Notes under the pieces: generated by a model
Told to the model about the DNA's origin: nothing
The model's input: the letters and a program-made list of their open reading frames with translations, nothing else
Database searches by the model: none
Source: Natronococcus sp. A-GB1
Lineage (GTDB): Archaea; Halobacteriota; Halobacteria; Halobacteriales; Natrialbaceae
DNA length: 64,000 nt
Assembly (NCBI RefSeq): GCF_029688845.1
Contig: NZ_JARUKW010000004.1
Span: 1 to 64,000, forward strand
Direction of reading: 5' to 3'
Part shown: positions 13,671 to 31,392 of the stretch, piece after piece
Layout: each line of letters starts with the position of its first letter
How positions within the stretch are numbered: the stretch's first letter is position 1
Made by a program: the position numbers and the translations under genes

Positions 13671-14318
13671 TCAGTTCGTGAGCTCCTCGAGGTTTCGCTC
13701 GCGCACCGTTGCGCTCTCGTCGGTGCGCTCGGCGAACTCGTCGACGCGATCCTTGATGTCCTCGCGGGTCGCCTCCGGCGAGAAGGAGTCGGACATCGTC
13801 AGCAGTCGAACGAACGCCCTGAGTTCCTCGTCGGTGAGCTGGGCGAACTCCTCGTTCTCGAGCTTTTCGACGACCTCGTCGACGTCGATCTGGCCGACCG
13901 GCTCGACGCTGAACTCGACGTTGACCATTCGGTAGTTCGAGCCCGCGAGGCGCTGTTCGGCCTTGCCGACGCCCTCCGAGAGCATATCCTTGAACGGGGT
14001 GTGGTACCCCATCGTCCCGAGGTGGAGGAAGGCGAGCATGTCCGTGATCCCCTGGGTGTAGGCGTCCCGGTCCTCGTCGTCGGGATCGAACACCGTCTCT
14101 CGGTCGCGTTCCTCCAAGTACTCGAAGAGGATGCTGAAGTCGAGCACCGCGTTCCGGACCCGGCGTCGGATCCGATTTCGCTTCTGTTTCTTCGAGTGAT
14201 CAGTGTAGTCCGTCTTCCGGCCGAGCAGAAAGTCGCGGTCGGAGGGAGTGAGGATCCCGCGGGGTCGGTCCGAGTCGGCCGCGGTTCGAAGCGACTGCGG
14301 GACGTCATCCTGGCTCAT
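13671..14318 (-). CDS. Haloarchaeal protein of unknown function, charged and soluble
   Basis: From the ATG at 14318 the product has 215 residues. It begins MSQDDVPQSLRTAADS, has a basic patch (KKQKRNRIRRRVRNAV, about residues 45-60), a helix-rich central part (FSILFEYLEERDRETVF) and an acidic C-terminal third rich in EEL and DEVVEKLE helices. There is no membrane segment or enzyme motif. An in-frame ATG at 14363 would add 15 poor residues and was not chosen. It follows no recognisable operon. It looks like a conserved haloarchaeal regulator or structural protein, but no function can be named. Confidence 0.68.
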   Translation of the reverse strand: MSQDDVPQSLRTAADSDRPRGILTPSDRDFLLGRKTDYTDHSKKQKRNRIRRRVRNAVLDFSILFEYLEERDRETVFDPDDEDRDAYTQGITDMLAFLHLGTMGYHTPFKDMLSEGVGKAEQRLAGSNYRMVNVEFSVEPVGQIDVDEVVEKLENEEFAQLTDEELRAFVRLLTMSDSFSPEATREDIKDRVDEFAERTDESATVRERNLEELTN

Positions 14319-23356: not shown

Positions 23357-23448
23357 CTCCGAGCGGTAGCCGAGATCCACTCGACAACCGCCGCGCTTTC
23401 GACGGGGGAACCAGAACCTTTTGCATCGACGGTCCGCTCCAATCGACC

Positions 23449-23886
23449 ATGCAACGACGTGCAGTTCTCGCTGGCGTCTCGAGTCTCGTCGCCCTCGCCG
23501 GCTGTCTCTCCGACGACGAGATCGACGAACGGGGCGAGATCGAGATCCTGATCGACGACGAACCGGTGAACCTCTCGGAGGATCGGTACCAGGCCGAACA
23601 CGCCCCGAACCACTCGATCGACTTTCATCTCCACGAGACCAGCGACCAGTGGTACATGGAGGGCGAGGAGCGGGTCACGTTCGCCGAGGGGATCGACCTG
23701 CTGCCGTACTTCTCGTTCGAAACGGACGACGGCGACCACGTCCTCGAACACGACGGCGACGTCTACGACGAGGCCGACGCCGACACCGAGATGACGTTCC
23801 TGGTCGACGGCGAGTCCGTCGACCCGACGGAACACACGCTCGAGGACGGCGAGGAGATGATCCTCGAGGTATCGACCAGCGGGTGA
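23449..23886 (+). CDS. Small acidic secreted lipoprotein, function unknown
   Basis: The 145-residue product has a Tat/lipoprotein-like N-terminus: MQRRAVLAGVSSLVALAGC with the lipobox cysteine at residue 19. The mature part is acidic, about 35 percent Asp/Glu by eye, and is beta-strand rich (EIEILIDDEPVNLSEDRY, then TSDQWYMEGEERVTFAEGIDLLPYFSF). It is a haloarchaeal surface lipoprotein type of unknown role; the fold looks immunoglobulin-like. It is read in the same direction as its neighbours but with gaps of about 90 and 70 bases. Confidence 0.75.
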   Translation: MQRRAVLAGVSSLVALAGCLSDDEIDERGEIEILIDDEPVNLSEDRYQAEHAPNHSIDFHLHETSDQWYMEGEERVTFAEGIDLLPYFSFETDDGDHVLEHDGDVYDEADADTEMTFLVDGESVDPTEHTLEDGEEMILEVSTSG

Positions 23887-25594: not shown

Positions 25595-27610
25595 TTAGTC
25601 TCGATCCCGAACCCGAAGGGCTTCGACGGTGACCGCGACGGTTCCGCCGACGGCGACTGCGACGGCGCCGAACTGGAGGAAGACGGCGAACGGCGAGTCG
25701 TCGTTCTCGCCGTCGTGATCGTGGGCGTCCTCGTGGTCGTGAGCGTCGTCCTCGTGATCGTGACCGTCGTCGCTGTCGTGATCGTGGTCGTGGTCTTCGT
25801 GGCCGTCGGGTGAGACGGCGATCACGTCGATCCACTCGCTCACGTACGAGCCGTCGGGCGCGCCGGTCACTCGCAGCTCCCAGCGACCGTCGTCGGCGAG
25901 GGGCTGGACCGTGGCGTACGCGCCGTCGTCAGTCTCCTCGAGTTCGACCTCGGTCTGGGTACCATCCTCGCTGCTTGCGAGCAACCGAACAGCCTGGTCC
26001 GAACTCATCGGCTCGCCGTCGTCGTCGAGGAACGCCACCTCGAAGACGATCGGCTCGTCAGCCTCGAGGACGAAGTAGTCGTCGCCCTCGGCCTCCTCCG
26101 CGGCCGGGAACGCGCTGATCTCGAGGATGCTATCGTCGTACTCGTGTTCGATCGTCGATTCGACGAGGTCGTCGTCCGCACCGGCGACGGCAGCCGTCGG
26201 TGCCGAGGTAAGCACGCCCGAGAGAAGCAACACGGCGGCGAGGACCGCCAGTTCGAGACGGATCGATCGGACGATCGTCCGGAGCCGGCTGTCCGCAGTC
26301 TCGACTCCGCCGTCCGCGCTCGTCGGCCACGAGGAGCTCGCCGAATCGGTGGCTCTCGACGACTCGAGCCGACGCAGCAGGACGAACCGTGTCACACCTC
26401 CAAGTCCGAGTGCGATCGCGATCAACGCGAGTTTCGCCACGAGCGTCAGTCCGTACACGGTGTCGACGAGGCCGTCCGCCTCGGGAACGTGCCAGGAGGC
26501 GAGGACGAACCCCGTTGCCACGACGAGGGTGACACCGCTCAGTGCAAGTATCGAGAATCGCCGAATCGTTCCGGTAACGAGCGCGGTTCGATCGGCGGGC
26601 GCGCCAGCCCGGGCCGCGGGGACGACGGCGAGCGCGAGCACCGCCAGCCCGCCGATCCAGAGCCCGGCGCCGACAATGTGGACGAAGTCGACGACCGTCC
26701 CCTGGAGGCGATCGATCGCCGTCGCCGAGTGGCTCGTCCAGGCGACCGTTCCCGCCAGGGCGAGGGCTCCAGCGAACGTGCCGGCGAGCGCGGGTCGACG
26801 GGCACCGCCTCGGATCCGCCAGACGACGACCGCAGTGACGAGCGCCGCGACAGCGAGCTGTACGAGCCAGGCCTGCCCGAGCGGCGTCTCGAGGAACTGC
26901 GAGACGGTATCGACCGAGAGCGGACCCAGGCTCGTGCTCCGGACGAGCCCGAGGGCGAGCGCGCTCGCGAGGGTGAGGACCGCAGCGCCGACGAGCAGCC
27001 GACCGACACGTCCGTCGAGGGCGGCTCGTCGCGAGCTACCGGCTCGAGCGAAAGCGGGCCCGGCGGCGACGGCTGCGGTCGCCGGGATCCCGACCAGTCC
27101 AACGATTCCGACGAGCAACAGGCCTTTGGCGCCCGCCTCGATCGGCGAGATAGACTCGTCGGTCTCGTCGTCCTCGTGGGACTCGAGCACCGCGTCGCGG
27201 TCGAGCGGTTCGTCACCGACGGCGAAGAAGAACGAGCCCGACGTGGTGTGGCCGTCGTCAGCGAGGACCTCCCACTCGACGGTGTACATCCCCTCCTCGT
27301 CGGCCGCGTCCTCGATCGGCACGTCGACGAGTTGCGTGTCGTCGGGATCGATCTCGGGTTCACCGCTGACGACCTCGCCGTCCGGCCCCTCGATGGTGAT
27401 ATCGGCGTTGACGACGCCGTCGCCCGAGAAGGTCAGCGTGACCTCGTCGGGCACCTCGTCGACCTGCTCGCCGTTCGCGGGGTCCGTCTCGCTGAGGTAG
27501 GCGTGGGCCGCGACCGGGGTTGCAAAACTCGCCAGCACCAACACTCCGACCAGGAGGACGACGACGGCGAGCGTCGCGGTCGAACGGGCGAACTGACGGC
27601 TTCCAGTCAT
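25595..27610 (-). CDS. CopC-CopD fusion copper protein with His-rich extension
   Basis: This 671-residue exported protein joins a CopC-like copper-binding domain to a CopD-like membrane domain. The signal peptide (about residues 1-35) would be cut so that H36 becomes the free N-terminus, and D119-G-H121 provides the other ligands of the CopC Cu(II) site. Eight or so membrane segments follow (about 160-440), then an extracytoplasmic region and a stretch at 603-638 with ten histidines in 36 residues, then a last membrane helix. Its ATG overlaps the stop of the upstream propeller gene by 4 bases. It should take part in copper (or other metal) uptake or delivery at the outer face. Confidence 0.88.
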   Translation of the reverse strand: MTGSRQFARSTATLAVVVLLVGVLVLASFATPVAAHAYLSETDPANGEQVDEVPDEVTLTFSGDGVVNADITIEGPDGEVVSGEPEIDPDDTQLVDVPIEDAADEEGMYTVEWEVLADDGHTTSGSFFFAVGDEPLDRDAVLESHEDDETDESISPIEAGAKGLLLVGIVGLVGIPATAAVAAGPAFARAGSSRRAALDGRVGRLLVGAAVLTLASALALGLVRSTSLGPLSVDTVSQFLETPLGQAWLVQLAVAALVTAVVVWRIRGGARRPALAGTFAGALALAGTVAWTSHSATAIDRLQGTVVDFVHIVGAGLWIGGLAVLALAVVPAARAGAPADRTALVTGTIRRFSILALSGVTLVVATGFVLASWHVPEADGLVDTVYGLTLVAKLALIAIALGLGGVTRFVLLRRLESSRATDSASSSWPTSADGGVETADSRLRTIVRSIRLELAVLAAVLLLSGVLTSAPTAAVAGADDDLVESTIEHEYDDSILEISAFPAAEEAEGDDYFVLEADEPIVFEVAFLDDDGEPMSSDQAVRLLASSEDGTQTEVELEETDDGAYATVQPLADDGRWELRVTGAPDGSYVSEWIDVIAVSPDGHEDHDHDHDSDDGHDHEDDAHDHEDAHDHDGENDDSPFAVFLQFGAVAVAVGGTVAVTVEALRVRDRD

Positions 27611-28833
27611 CGGTACCGGCCTGTGTATCCCGTCCCGGAATCGCCAACGTACTGGACGGTGTCGACGGGGGCGCCGACGTCGATCAGGTCGACTTCCTGC
27701 GCGGTCATCTCGACCACGGCGACCGCCTCGTCGACGTCCGCCGGCGTGACGAAGTACTCGTCCCCGGAGACGGCCATCCGGCTCCGGCCGTCGACGTCAC
27801 CTACGTCGAGTCGATCAACTTCCTCGAGCGTGTCTATGTCGACGACGGCGACGTCTCCCGACCCGGCGGTCGCAACGAAGGCGTCGGCGCCGTCGGGTCC
27901 GAACCGAACCGTCGAGGGGCCGCCGTCGATCTCGACGCTGCCGAGCACCTCGCTGTCCTCGTCCGAGACGTCGACGAAGTAGACGTCGTCGTCGACGATC
28001 GCGAGTCGATCCTCCTCGGGCGAGAGGAACATCCCGCCGGTGAAATCGAGTTCGTCGACCACCTCCTCTGTCTCTGTATCGACGACGGTCGTTCCGCCGA
28101 AGTACTCGGCGTACACGAGGTCGTTCTGCGGGCCGTAGGCCTTGTAGTGGGTACCGCCGCTGTCGCCGAACTCGATGAAGTCGCTTCGCTCGTAGCTCTC
28201 GAGATCGACGACGGCTATTCCGGGGTCGTTAACGTTCGTTGCGTAGCCGGTGTCGCCCATCTCTTCGTGATAGAGCAACTTGCCGTGGCCTTCGTCGTCG
28301 AGACCGACTTCGACGATTTCACTCACCTCAAGATCGTCGACGTCGATGACGTAGAACGCACCCTCGTCGTCGGCGTGGACCCAGATCTCGTCGTCGACCG
28401 GGTGGTACATGTGATTGATACCCGGACCGACGTCGATCGCAGCTTCGTGGGTACGCGTTTCGGTGTCGATGACGTGCACCTGATCGAGCGTCTCCTCCAC
28501 GGCGAAGATCAGCCCGTAATCGTGGGTGATCTGTGGCTCTGCCCACGATTCGTCGTCGAACTCCTCGGTGATCTCGTCGACGACGTCACCGTCGGCAGGG
28601 TCGAGGATCGAGATCCGATTAGGGGCGAACGCGTAGACGAGGCCGTCGCTGCCGACGGCCTCCGGTTCGTCGTCTCCGTTACCGCCGTTGTCGTCTGGGT
28701 CGGCGTCGTCAGCGTTTTCAGCGTCGTCGTCTGCAGCGCCGTCGGTATCATCCTCGAGACAGCCGGCGAGAGAAACAGTTGCAAATCCGCCGACAGCCCC
28801 GATAACCGTCCGTCGCTTCACAGGGCAGTTCAT
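27607..28833 (-). CDS. Beta-propeller lipoprotein, metallochaperone-like, copy 2
   Basis: The 408-residue product has a Tat-type lipoprotein leader (KRRTVIGAVGGFATVSLAGC, C25) followed by an Asp-rich linker and a repeated propeller domain of YVTN/six- or seven-blade type (blades such as AFAPNRISILDPADGDVV, VDVDDLEVSEIVEVGLDDE). Histidine-bearing turns are conserved between this copy and its neighbour (MYHPVDDEIWVH, HGKLLYHEEMG). Secreted propellers with this layout resemble the zinc chaperone AztD, but I cannot confirm this. It overlaps the CopC-CopD gene by 4 bases, tying it to metal handling. Confidence 0.78.
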   Translation of the reverse strand: MNCPVKRRTVIGAVGGFATVSLAGCLEDDTDGAADDDAENADDADPDDNGGNGDDEPEAVGSDGLVYAFAPNRISILDPADGDVVDEITEEFDDESWAEPQITHDYGLIFAVEETLDQVHVIDTETRTHEAAIDVGPGINHMYHPVDDEIWVHADDEGAFYVIDVDDLEVSEIVEVGLDDEGHGKLLYHEEMGDTGYATNVNDPGIAVVDLESYERSDFIEFGDSGGTHYKAYGPQNDLVYAEYFGGTTVVDTETEEVVDELDFTGGMFLSPEEDRLAIVDDDVYFVDVSDEDSEVLGSVEIDGGPSTVRFGPDGADAFVATAGSGDVAVVDIDTLEEVDRLDVGDVDGRSRMAVSGDEYFVTPADVDEAVAVVEMTAQEVDLIDVGAPVDTVQYVGDSGTGYTGRYR

Positions 28834-28934
28834 ACCCGACCTTTCGACGCTGTGGCTTACTCGATTCTGGTACGGTAGTCGAAAGTCGACACCTGTGGGT
28901 CAGTATCGCAAGAAACGGTCAGCCGGCCGACCAC

Positions 28935-30200
28935 TCACCTGAGTTTGCCGGTGTAGCCGACGCCGGAGTCGCCGACGTACTGCACCGTGTCGACGCCCTC
29001 CTCGACCTCGACGTGCTCGACGAGTTCCTGTGCGTCCATATCAACGATCGCGACGATTCCGTCGGCGTCCGCGGGGCTGACGAAGTAGTCGCCGCCGGCA
29101 ACGCCGGTTCGGTGGAGGTGGTCGGCGTCCTCAGGACGCTCGATATCGCCGATATCGACGGTCTCGACGACCTCGGCCGCTTCGACGTCGATGATCGACG
29201 CCTCGTCGGTCTGGGTGTTCGCCGTGAACGCGTAGACCGCGTCGTCGGCCTCGTGGTACCGGAGCGCGTCCGGATCGTCGCCGACCTCGACGACGCCGAG
29301 CTCCTCGCTGTCCTCGCTCGTCGCGTCGAGGAACCGGACATCGTCGCCGTCGAGCACGCCGAGAACCTCCTCGTCGGGGGTGAGGTACATTCCGCCAGCG
29401 AAGTCGAGCGTGTCGACGATCTCGTCGTCGTCGATGTCGACAACCACGGTTTCGTCGCTGAACTCGAAGTACGCGAGCCCCGTCTCCGGCGCGTAGGCCT
29501 TGTAGTGGGTTCCCTGTTCGTCATCGTCGGCGAACTCGATGAAATCGCTTCGTTCGTAGTTCTCGAGGTCGATCACCGGCGCGCCGGGGTCGTTGACGTT
29601 CGTCGCGTAGCCGACCGAACCCATGTTCTCGTGGTAGAGCAACTTCCCGTGGCCTTCCTCCTCGAGCCCCGACTCGACGATTTCGGTGACCTCGTGGGAG
29701 TCGGTATCGATGACGTAGAAGGTGCCCTCGTCGTCGCTGTGGGCCCACATCTCGTCGTCGTTAGGGTGGTACATGTGGGTCGCGTCCGGTCCGATATCGA
29801 CCTCGTCGACGATCTCGCGGGCCTCGGTGTCGATGACGAGCACCTGCGAGGGCGACTCCCTGATCACGTAGATCTCGCCGTAATCGGTCGTGATCCGCGG
29901 ATCGCCCCACCCTTCGTCGTCGAGGTCGTCGGTGATCTCGTCGACGACCTCGCCGTCTTCGGGATCGATGATCGCGATCGTGTTCGGCGCGAAGGCGTAG
30001 ATCAGCCCCTCGCTGTCGCCGTTCTCGGTCTCCGACTCCTCGTCGTCTCCGTTGTGGTCGTGATCGGGGTCATCGCCATCGTCGTCCGCGTCGTCGCCGT
30101 TTCCTTCGTCCTCGCCACCATCGTCGGCACAGCCGGCGACGGCCACGACGAATCCGCTTCCAGTTAGCTGTACAAGACGTCGTCGCGTAATGGAATCCAT
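28935..30200 (-). CDS. Beta-propeller lipoprotein, metallochaperone-like, copy 1
   Basis: From the ATG at 30200 the product has 421 residues, with lipobox cysteine C24 (VVAVAGC), an acidic linker containing a DHDHN motif (H47, H49) and a seven-blade-like YVTN propeller. Long stretches are nearly identical to the following gene (TNVNDPG, YERSDFIEF, HGKLLYHE, DDEGTFYVID), so the two arose by tandem duplication. A start at 30293 is rejected because it would precede the twin-arginine-like leader. The gap to the next gene is about 100 bases; the three genes probably form one operon. Confidence 0.78.
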   Translation of the reverse strand: MDSITRRRLVQLTGSGFVVAVAGCADDGGEDEGNGDDADDDGDDPDHDHNGDDEESETENGDSEGLIYAFAPNTIAIIDPEDGEVVDEITDDLDDEGWGDPRITTDYGEIYVIRESPSQVLVIDTEAREIVDEVDIGPDATHMYHPNDDEMWAHSDDEGTFYVIDTDSHEVTEIVESGLEEEGHGKLLYHENMGSVGYATNVNDPGAPVIDLENYERSDFIEFADDDEQGTHYKAYAPETGLAYFEFSDETVVVDIDDDEIVDTLDFAGGMYLTPDEEVLGVLDGDDVRFLDATSEDSEELGVVEVGDDPDALRYHEADDAVYAFTANTQTDEASIIDVEAAEVVETVDIGDIERPEDADHLHRTGVAGGDYFVSPADADGIVAIVDMDAQELVEHVEVEEGVDTVQYVGDSGVGYTGKLR

Positions 30201-30364
30201 ATTCGCCAGTTTGTCTACGGTCTTACCTTGCTTCTGGTGTGCGTCTCGAAAACCTGGTTCACCTCTCGAATTGTTATGTCGGGTGGATATCACGCCGCGG
30301 CCCTGTACGGTGCTCTCGAGTTCAGGAAAGTGAAATAATGCTCCTGGCAGAAACCGAGGCGACG

Positions 30365-30880
30365 CTACGCGCCCTCGAGCAGGTCGTCGACGAGCCGGGT
30401 GAACCGATCGAGCAGTCGATCCGGAACCGTTGGTTCGACCGTCGACAGCAACTCGGCGGTCCGTTCGGGGTTTGCCAATCGAAGGACGACCCGGTTGCGC
30501 TCGTCGTAGGTTTTCTCGACGACCTCCTGCTCGACCAGTCGGTCGAGGTGGTACTCGAGCGTGCTCCGGGCGATTCCGAGCGCGTCAGCGACCGCGCCCG
30601 GCCCCGTCGGCTCGTGTTCGATCAGGTGGACGACGATCTCACGGGCGGTTTCTCGCCGGAACAGTGCCAGCAGGGCCTGTTCGTGCTCGTCGTACTCGGG
30701 CGCGTAGTAGTGAGTTCGACCGTAGAACTCGTTGCGGACGAGCTCGCCGTCATCGATCAGGCGGCGAATGTGGTACTGAATCTGTCCTGGTGCGAACGCC
30801 GACTCTCTGACGAGCTCATTGAAGTGGATGCCAGCGTTGGCGTGGACGTGGGTTCTGATCTGCTGTCGCGTATCGGACAT
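30365..30880 (-). CDS. Double winged-helix transcriptional regulator
   Basis: From the ATG at 30880 the product has 171 residues with two winged helices: IRTHVHANAGIHFNELVRESAFAPGQIQYHIRRLIDDGEL at about 8-48 and IVVHLIEHEPTGPGAVADALGIARSTLEYHLDRL at about 82-116. No metal-binding cysteine is seen. The tandem HTH is a haloarchaeal IclR/ArsR-like arrangement. It stands immediately upstream of the propeller/CopCD operon in the same direction and divergent from a small membrane protein, so it is the most likely local regulator of that locus. Confidence 0.82.
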   Translation of the reverse strand: MSDTRQQIRTHVHANAGIHFNELVRESAFAPGQIQYHIRRLIDDGELVRNEFYGRTHYYAPEYDEHEQALLALFRRETAREIVVHLIEHEPTGPGAVADALGIARSTLEYHLDRLVEQEVVEKTYDERNRVVLRLANPERTAELLSTVEPTVPDRLLDRFTRLVDDLLEGA

Positions 30881-31041
30881 GTGAGACGAATCACCGAAAT
30901 TCCGGCCGAGCCGGCTGCTACCGCGGGCTAGCCGTCCAGTACTGATAACGGTTTCCGATCCCTTGCAGTGTCGAGGCGGCCGTGGCCCCTCCCGTGACCG
31001 AAGAGCATAGGTAACCTTCCGACCGACGTAGGAATACGGAG

Positions 31042-31392
31042 ATGCACCACACGAGCCCGTTCGAGCTCGGCTGGCTGGATCCACAGGTAGCTCCGGTTTT
31101 ACTCGCCGTGATCGTTCTGGCGGTGCTCTGTACGGCGGTACTGTTCTGTTGTGGCGTCGTCGCGTATCTGCGGCGGCGATCGACCCGGTATCTGTTGGTT
31201 ACGGTCGCTCTGGGCTTGCTTCTGATTCGATCGCTGGTCGGTCTCGGCACCGTCTTCGGAGTCGTCTCGATGTCCCTCCACCACCTCCTCGAGCACGGGA
31301 TCGACGTCTCGATCGCCGTGTTGATCCTGTATGCGGTCTACCGGAGCGGACCTGGAACCGAGCAGGCGCAGTTCGAAACCGACGGCGACTGA
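31042..31392 (+). CDS. Small membrane protein partnered with an HTH regulator
   Basis: The 116-residue product has three membrane segments (about residues 15-42, 48-72 and 82-103) and a short acidic tail. Histidines in SMSLHHLLEHGIDVS lie between the second and third segments. It is divergent from the double-HTH regulator with a 161-base shared promoter region. The arrangement is analogous to the HTH/membrane-protein pair at 6697-7274. No function is known; a membrane sensor partner is plausible. Confidence 0.7.
   Translation: MHHTSPFELGWLDPQVAPVLLAVIVLAVLCTAVLFCCGVVAYLRRRSTRYLLVTVALGLLLIRSLVGLGTVFGVVSMSLHHLLEHGIDVSIAVLILYAVYRSGPGTEQAQFETDGD

Follow-up and report, generated by a model that had tools for sequence, protein, structure and literature searches.

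The locus examined here, carried on a window of 64,000 nucleotides from Natronococcus sp. A-GB1, raises the question of what exported beta-propeller lipoproteins do beside a CopC-CopD fusion, and for which metal. Little is known, to our knowledge, of how archaea take up copper, and the earliest descriptions of CopC and CopD come from resistance operons. An earlier sequence-only reading took the propellers for AztD-like metallochaperones handing copper or zinc to the membrane CopD domain. We favour an extracytoplasmic copper-acquisition module, to which we assign a probability of roughly 0.55. The parts of the locus are as follows:

23397 to 23416, plus strand: promoter element of the small lipoprotein, TTTCGACGGGGGAACCAGAA; also found before the L060 and L081 homologues
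23449 to 23886, plus strand: small His-containing lipoprotein, 145 aa, a probable co-regulated accessory (promoter element at matching distance)
25595 to 27610, minus strand: CopC-CopD-(FixH/YtkA-like Ig)-His-rich-TM membrane protein (CopCD), 671 aa (Pfam, conservation, AF2 model)
27607 to 28833, minus strand: propeller lipoprotein 2, 408 aa, the 3' bases of which overlap the copCD start by 4 bp
28865 to 28884, minus strand: promoter element of propeller 2/copCD, TTTCGACTACCGTACCAGAA; kept by homologues, with its end 32 bp upstream of the start codon
28935 to 30200, minus strand: propeller lipoprotein 1, 421 aa, with Tat signal and lipobox C24 (AF2: 8-bladed)
30232 to 30251, minus strand: promoter element of propeller 1, TTTCGAGACGCACACCAGAA; kept by homologues, with its end 32 bp upstream of the start codon
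30365 to 30880, minus strand: HVO_0163-type double winged-helix regulator, membership uncertain (Pfam HTH_HVO_0163_N 5e-35)
31042 to 31392, plus strand: DUF7471 small membrane protein, membership uncertain (Pfam 1e-33)

This layout bears out the earlier description of two tandem, closely similar propeller lipoproteins (53% identical, each with an RR signal and a lipobox), the second overlapping the CopC-CopD gene by four bases, with a winged-helix regulator and a small membrane protein adjoining. The promoter element and the small lipoprotein had both been missed, and the element is new here. A DNA match at 13729-13921 (69%) was considered as a third propeller and rejected, as it is not another propeller.

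Across 62 loci drawn from several families of haloarchaea, propeller and CopCD genes lie side by side in 59, and the pairing is therefore not a matter of chance. Among 20 genomes with a full-length CopCD, 19 also carry a propeller, and in the remaining one the CopCD gene runs off the contig. What is conserved is a single propeller with CopCD; tandem propellers are rare (4/62 loci, one of these a remnant) and gene order varies, copCD coming first in L091, L095, L109, L111, L113 and L115. A phylum search with one propeller (E<=1e-20) had seemed to confine the family to its own genome, but the sample included few relatives, and later, wider searches showed the family to be widespread. No propeller associated with CopC and CopD, and no propeller acting as a copper metallochaperone, turned up in literature searches, in agreement with the earlier impression of novelty; the pair looks like an undescribed two-gene unit of haloarchaea with an exported, histidine-bearing propeller.

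The membrane partner matches CopC (PF04234; E 4e-21, 76.2 bits against a cut-off of 23.3) and CopD (PF05425; E 4e-18, 66.1 bits against a cut-off of 32.1, its homologues matching too). The Cu(II) ligand set noted previously (H36 with D119 and H121) is present and invariant in 59/59 CopCD homologues, the mature N-terminus being predicted at H36. With its N-terminal His and DxH Cu(II) ligands the CopC part has the features of class C0-1; it matches 9c14 (YcnJ CopC) and 5icu, and the H/D/H triad is a Cu(II) site in relatives of known structure. The ten histidines reported earlier were found in a His-rich stretch preceding the last helix. An Ig-like domain lies at about 483-600 (strands at 483-599 in the AF2 model, pLDDT 79.8), its scores for FixH (1e-4) and YtkA (0.02) both falling just below the Pfam cut-offs.

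This architecture recalls YcnKJI of Bacillus subtilis, where a CopC(C0-1)-CopD-YtkA-like membrane protein with a His/Asp Cu(II) site in CopC likewise has an adjacent exported partner. YcnJ exchanges Cu(II) with YcnI, and CopC-CopD-YtkA relatives help cells to grow when copper is limiting (PMC12154828). The two systems differ, however, in that partner (YcnI, a cupredoxin-like DUF1775 protein, as opposed to an 8-bladed propeller lipoprotein), in the His-rich tail of CopCD, in the regulator and in the distinct promoter element found here.

In 63 of 65 propeller homologues the RR falls among the first 15 residues, and the lipobox Cys is the only conserved Cys. The AF2 model of propeller 1 is 8-bladed (pLDDT 92.2), and the near-invariant columns inside its blades, 16 in number, all fall in blades 3-5. 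H142, H154, H184 and H232 are kept in all 66 propeller members, including the most divergent (L120, in which 11 His are inserted directly before H232), and propeller 2 keeps the equivalents of H142/H154/H184/H190/H232. In the model and alignment, H142, H184 and H232 occupy strand A, the innermost, of blades 3-5, one per blade; judging from these strand positions they may meet in the pore. E150, W152, D156, K186 and R364 are also invariant. By sequence profile the closest relatives are YVTN/YncE propellers (e.g. the archaeal surface-layer protein 1l0q, E 2e-16), although YncE has 7 blades rather than 8 and no three-blade cluster of invariant His has been described for that type.

How AztD-like are these propellers, then? 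AztD, part of the AztABCD systems of Paracoccus and Citrobacter, is reported as the first propeller to take part in metal transfer; it binds zinc at site 1 through three pore histidines (H124/H167/H218) and hands it over from site 2 (PMC6689063). Both it and the haloarchaeal proteins are exported 8-bladed propellers adjoining a metal importer, and the model matches AztD 6n01 end to end in Foldseek (E 3e-13) and 6ck1 in VIA-align (Z 27.1, 321 residues, 3.2 A). Three apparently pore-side His on three consecutive blades are similarly spaced (42/48 for H142/H184/H232, 43/51 for AztD site 1), though sequence gives no support for this alignment register. The profile search suggested earlier, on the other hand, fails for both propellers: the AztD model NF038015 has no match in their own genome at E<=0.001, is not listed for the two window propellers at E<=1, and is not among the families shown for 41 propeller members at E<=10. 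Site 2 (an HGxHxD hairpin plus a C-terminal His) is absent, the C-terminus being no conserved His, and the Cys214/Cys231 disulfide has no counterpart. Profile-profile alignment, tried as evidence of kinship, gave weak matches out of blade register. In a circular-register test against AztD the native register ranked only 15th (full) or 23rd (His masked) of 63, and no special sequence kinship is therefore claimed; as far as sequence can tell, AztD is not singled out from other propellers. The fold, and apparently the placing of the His triad on the same three blades, thus remain of the proposed likeness, but not the profile, site 2 or sequence kinship, and the usual partner here is CopC-CopD rather than an ABC transporter.

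The promoter element, TTTCGANNNNYGNACCAKAA, lies about 33 bp upstream of the start of both propellers and of the small lipoprotein (23449). The 62 loci contain 68 sites, 60 before propellers and four before copCD, and no site of a reversed-control element. Elsewhere the element precedes genes for SCO1-SenC, DUF7350/P19-like and SafE/DsbD_2 proteins, as well as for a 4Fe-4S membrane protein and His-rich membrane proteins. Its presence before SCO1, P19-like and SafE genes favours copper. For the copies linked to CopCD, copper is the likelier metal, ahead of zinc. The element also yields a list of candidate co-regulated genes, unannotated lipoproteins included, and opens the question to tests in laboratory haloarchaea amenable to genetics.

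Zinc is possible for some copies, since the paralogue L114, which lacks CopCD but has the same His set and promoter element, adjoins ZnuA/AztC-like and ZigA-like genes, a further likeness to AztABCD. L117 lies near a znu operon, and COG0523 GTPases occur at L091 and L095. We tentatively suggest, with rather less confidence than the copper module, a wider haloarchaeal metal-acquisition regulon, marked out by this undescribed element, in which an 8-bladed propeller metallochaperone would be paired with CopC-CopD for copper in most copies or, in at least one paralogue, with a ZnuA/AztC-like system for zinc. On that reading the propeller would be the first of its fold to serve as a copper metallochaperone.

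Linkage, co-occurrence, the three-blade His, the CopC Cu(II) ligands and the shared element together lend good support to metal handling between propeller and CopCD. This part of the metallochaperone proposal stands; that the propellers bind a metal, which metal it is, its transfer, the direction in which it travels and the signal sensed we infer. In the copper-acquisition module the propeller would be exported by the Tat route, sit as a lipoprotein on the membrane's outer face and bind Cu(II) through H142/H184/H232, helped by H154, H190 and H145. It would pass Cu(II) to the CopC domain (the H36 amino terminus, D119 and H121) of the co-transcribed CopC-CopD-YtkA-like protein, the CopD domain of which would import copper. 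The propeller would thereby play YcnI to the haloarchaeal YcnJ, replacing the DUF1775 domain. As the element is common to propellers, small lipoprotein, SCO1, P19-like and SafE genes, the module is probably turned on and off according to the need for copper. It looks like a new way of catching and importing scarce copper; if true, it would extend the AztD idea to copper and offer haloarchaea an import route open to testing.

We consider it unlikely that the propeller is instead a copper enzyme akin to thiocyanate dehydrogenase or lactonase-type NosZ that obtains its copper from CopCD. Invariant E150, W152, D156 and K186 exceed the needs of a plain metal site and could mark an enzyme, K186, R364, W152 and E150 suggesting a pocket. 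Foldseek lists thiocyanate dehydrogenase (8yu5, 8z75), itself a copper-binding propeller encoded between copC and copD in the haloalkaliphile Thioalkalivibrio, and the L-NosZ profile weakly matches 26 of 41 propeller members. These matches (NF052460) are however partial, with 23.3 bits for propeller 2 and 29.8 for L114 against a cut-off of 700 bits; thiocyanate dehydrogenase has a multinuclear copper centre and separate copC and copD genes, and its family is not matched by the propellers here. The invariant His are confined to three blades, the propeller has no conserved electron-transfer partner next to it, and the ZnuA/ZigA-linked paralogue does not fit.

That the module as a whole handles zinc or another divalent metal, an AztD-like zinc chaperone delivering to CopCD as uptake partner, seems improbable: the His triad, apparently placed as in AztD, and the L114, L117, L091 and L095 neighbourhoods speak for it, but the last two also have CopCD, 59/62 copies adjoin a CopC-CopD whose triad binds Cu(II) in relatives of solved structure, the element also precedes SCO1 and SafE genes, and three Znu loci of the same genome lie away from the propeller locus. 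Copper resistance, with propellers and His-rich CopCD tail holding excess copper outside the cell and no import, would suit the resistance operons from which CopC/CopD were first known, that tail and the His insertion of L120, yet is very unlikely: the propeller loci show neither a conserved efflux ATPase nor a conserved multicopper oxidase, CopC-CopD-YtkA relatives aid growth under copper limitation, and SCO1- and P19-like genes carry the element upstream.

We no longer count the regulator and DUF7471 among the proven parts, because both occur without propeller/CopCD and, in the window, no element precedes the regulator gene (30365-30880). They are general haloarchaeal neighbours not specific to the system: the HVO_0163-type regulator is present without propeller/CopCD, DUF7471 is found in 90 of 117 genomes, and a ribB-DUF7471-HTH-ilvE order occurs without them in L171 and L176. 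The small lipoprotein is also encoded in propeller-free genomes, and only co-regulation is therefore claimed for it; in Natronococcus-like relatives, and also in G276 and G287, it lies near propeller/CopCD, and in L060 and L081 the element stands 33 bp before its homologue.

The gene layout proposed in the sequence-only reading was borne out, including its coordinates, the 4-bp overlap between propeller 2 and CopCD, and the similarity of the two propellers (53% identical). The source is a Natronococcus-like haloarchaeon; among named relatives, N. amylolyticus came closest in the searches, with 91% identity in the propeller. In the window, a shared promoter element precedes propeller 1, propeller 2 and the lipoprotein gene at 23449:

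23397-23886, plus strand, promoter element and small lipoprotein gene (23449-23886), the element 33 bp before the start
25595-27610, minus strand, CopCD, a CopC-CopD fusion
27607-28833, minus strand, propeller 2, overlapping CopCD by 4 bp
28935-30200, minus strand, propeller 1
30365-30880, minus strand, HVO_0163-type regulator
31042-31392, plus strand, DUF7471

The propellers and CopCD are best read as a propeller to CopC-CopD copper import module, of which we infer the metal, the transfer and its direction. Outside the cell, the lipoprotein propeller would collect Cu(II) and hand it to CopC-CopD, which would import it, and the shared element would control the module. The individual parts are of known kinds; neither the propeller/CopCD combination nor the element was found in the literature searched.

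Both domains of CopCD score above Pfam cut-offs, and H36, D119 and H121, which form the Cu(II) site in CopC of class C0-1, are invariant in all 59 CopCD homologues. The CopD domain is followed by an Ig-like region (in the model) with sub-threshold FixH/YtkA matches, then a His-rich tail and the last helix. The CopC part matches the structures of YcnJ, whose domain layout CopCD appears to share, and of other CopC proteins. The CopC domain of YcnJ exchanges Cu(II) with YcnI, and YcnJ aids growth when copper is limiting (PMC12154828).

The propeller is adjoined by a CopCD gene in 59 of the 62 loci with flanking DNA. As the two remain adjacent while gene order differs (copCD comes first in L091, L095, L109, L111, L113 and L115), the pairing itself is retained. 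Profile searches found the propeller in 49/125 genomes of Natronococcus's own family and 48/392 of the order, ten of which belong to other families. It is found in 19 of 20 genomes with a full-length CopCD; in the remaining one the CopCD gene reaches the contig end. Tandem propellers occur in only four of the 62 loci, one being a remnant. On a Natrinema zhouii plasmid, a propeller copy annotated as hypothetical protein adjoins a CopC protein.

The element, TTTCGA-N4-YG-N-ACCAKAA, lies 5' of propeller starts, ACCAKAA preceding 50/64 propellers, usually by 37-42 bp. In about a dozen loci two copies stand as a direct repeat with a period of exactly 20 bp (among them the propeller promoters of L053, L062, L081, L082, L083, L088, L089, L092 and L097). 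Because it was derived from these same loci, the fair test is the reversed control together with sites at other genes. With at most one mismatch, 921 kb of locus DNA holds 68 sites, against none for the reversed pattern; 60 are 5' of a propeller, most of them at a distance of 32-34 or 52-56 bp, and four are 5' of copCD. Of the other four, two end 33 bp 5' of the small lipoprotein gene. The window has three sites where 0.4 would be expected, and 61 genomes of the family hold 130 sites against seven for the control. In forty stretches picked non-randomly from the 61-genome list, a gene begins 38-47 bases from ACCAKAA at 25 of 41 sites. Genes following the element encode SCO1-SenC (SCO1 is a copper chaperone), DUF7350/P19-like lipoproteins, SafE/DsbD_2, a 4Fe-4S membrane protein and membrane proteins with long His-rich loops; some have no evident link to metal. 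As a group, they point to copper trafficking. Among the membrane proteins whose genes follow the element are those of L262 (1330-2010), L278 (1413-2021) and L286; in the first two, both fully read, a YADWH motif is followed by very long His-rich loops, and the L262 protein has a weak ZIP match.

The propeller is eight-bladed in its AlphaFold2 model (pLDDT 92). H142, H154, H184, H190 and H232 (propeller 1 numbering) are invariant in 65 aligned propellers, H145 being retained in 54. Blades 3, 4 and 5 hold all 16 in-blade columns conserved above 98.5%, and connecting loops carry R364 and a few invariant glycines. The most divergent propeller, L120, which has its own adjoining CopCD, keeps H142, H154, H184 and H232, lacks H145 and H190, and has an 11-His insertion directly before H232.

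According to the model's strand list, H142, H184 and H232 begin the innermost strands of blades 3, 4 and 5 respectively. In the zinc metallochaperone AztD the pore (site 1) ligands are H124, H167 and H218, site 2 uses the blade 2 hairpin directly before H124, and zinc passes to AztC from site 2 (PMC6689063). Judging from strand positions, the same three blades appear to carry the triad in both proteins, with spacings of 42/48 in the propeller and 43/51 in AztD, where the triad is invariant in 12/12 bacterial AztD and AztD-like sequences. AztD is among many propellers matched by Foldseek (E 3e-13), and VIA-align superposes the model on it end to end (Z 27.1, 321 residues, 3.2 A), with cd1 nitrite reductase scoring higher (Z 30.4); the closest solved structure by sequence is a YVTN surface-layer protein. 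Compared as profiles, the propellers and the bacterial AztD/AztD-like set matched weakly and out of register; in a circular-register test the native register gained no added support. The propeller may thus work in an AztD-like way, as the sequence-only reading had it; since the AztD family model gives no match to the propellers and site 2 is absent from them, we do not call it an AztD.

Two propellers without an adjoining CopCD are complete enough to judge. One, a paralogue in L114 (G276 C10, 2536-11703) that also carries the element, lies in an Azt-like zinc locus with a ZnuA-type binding protein (best NCBIfam match AztC), two COG0523 GTPases (one was tested and best matches ZigA, below its cut-off), NikR-like genes and a His-rich lipoprotein. 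The other, in L118, adjoins a DUF7350/P19-like protein. In L117 a znu operon is close by, and COG0523 genes adjoin propeller and CopCD in L091 and L095. These contexts suggest that the propeller family may serve more than one metal.

DUF7471, present in 90/117 haloarchaeal genomes, is next to an HVO_0163-type regulator in almost every locus read, with or without a propeller, and this pairing extends across haloarchaea. Some relatives have the order ribB-DUF7471-HTH-ilvE with no propeller or CopCD in between. In several families the pair adjoins the propeller/CopCD unit where ribB and ilvE are missing, so a functional tie to that unit is possible. By eye, both DUF7471 copies compared (window 31042-31392 and L157) have an HHxLEHxxD motif inside a membrane helix.

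On a Paracoccus sp. AK26 plasmid (L127, 6900-8408), a DUF305 domain is fused to a YncE-type propeller in a copper-resistance island.

The small lipoprotein at 23449 (FHLHE...QWYMEG) matched no Pfam family. Its homologues lie beside CopCD in one genome (G287) and near a propeller in another (G276), and occur too in genomes lacking propeller and CopCD.
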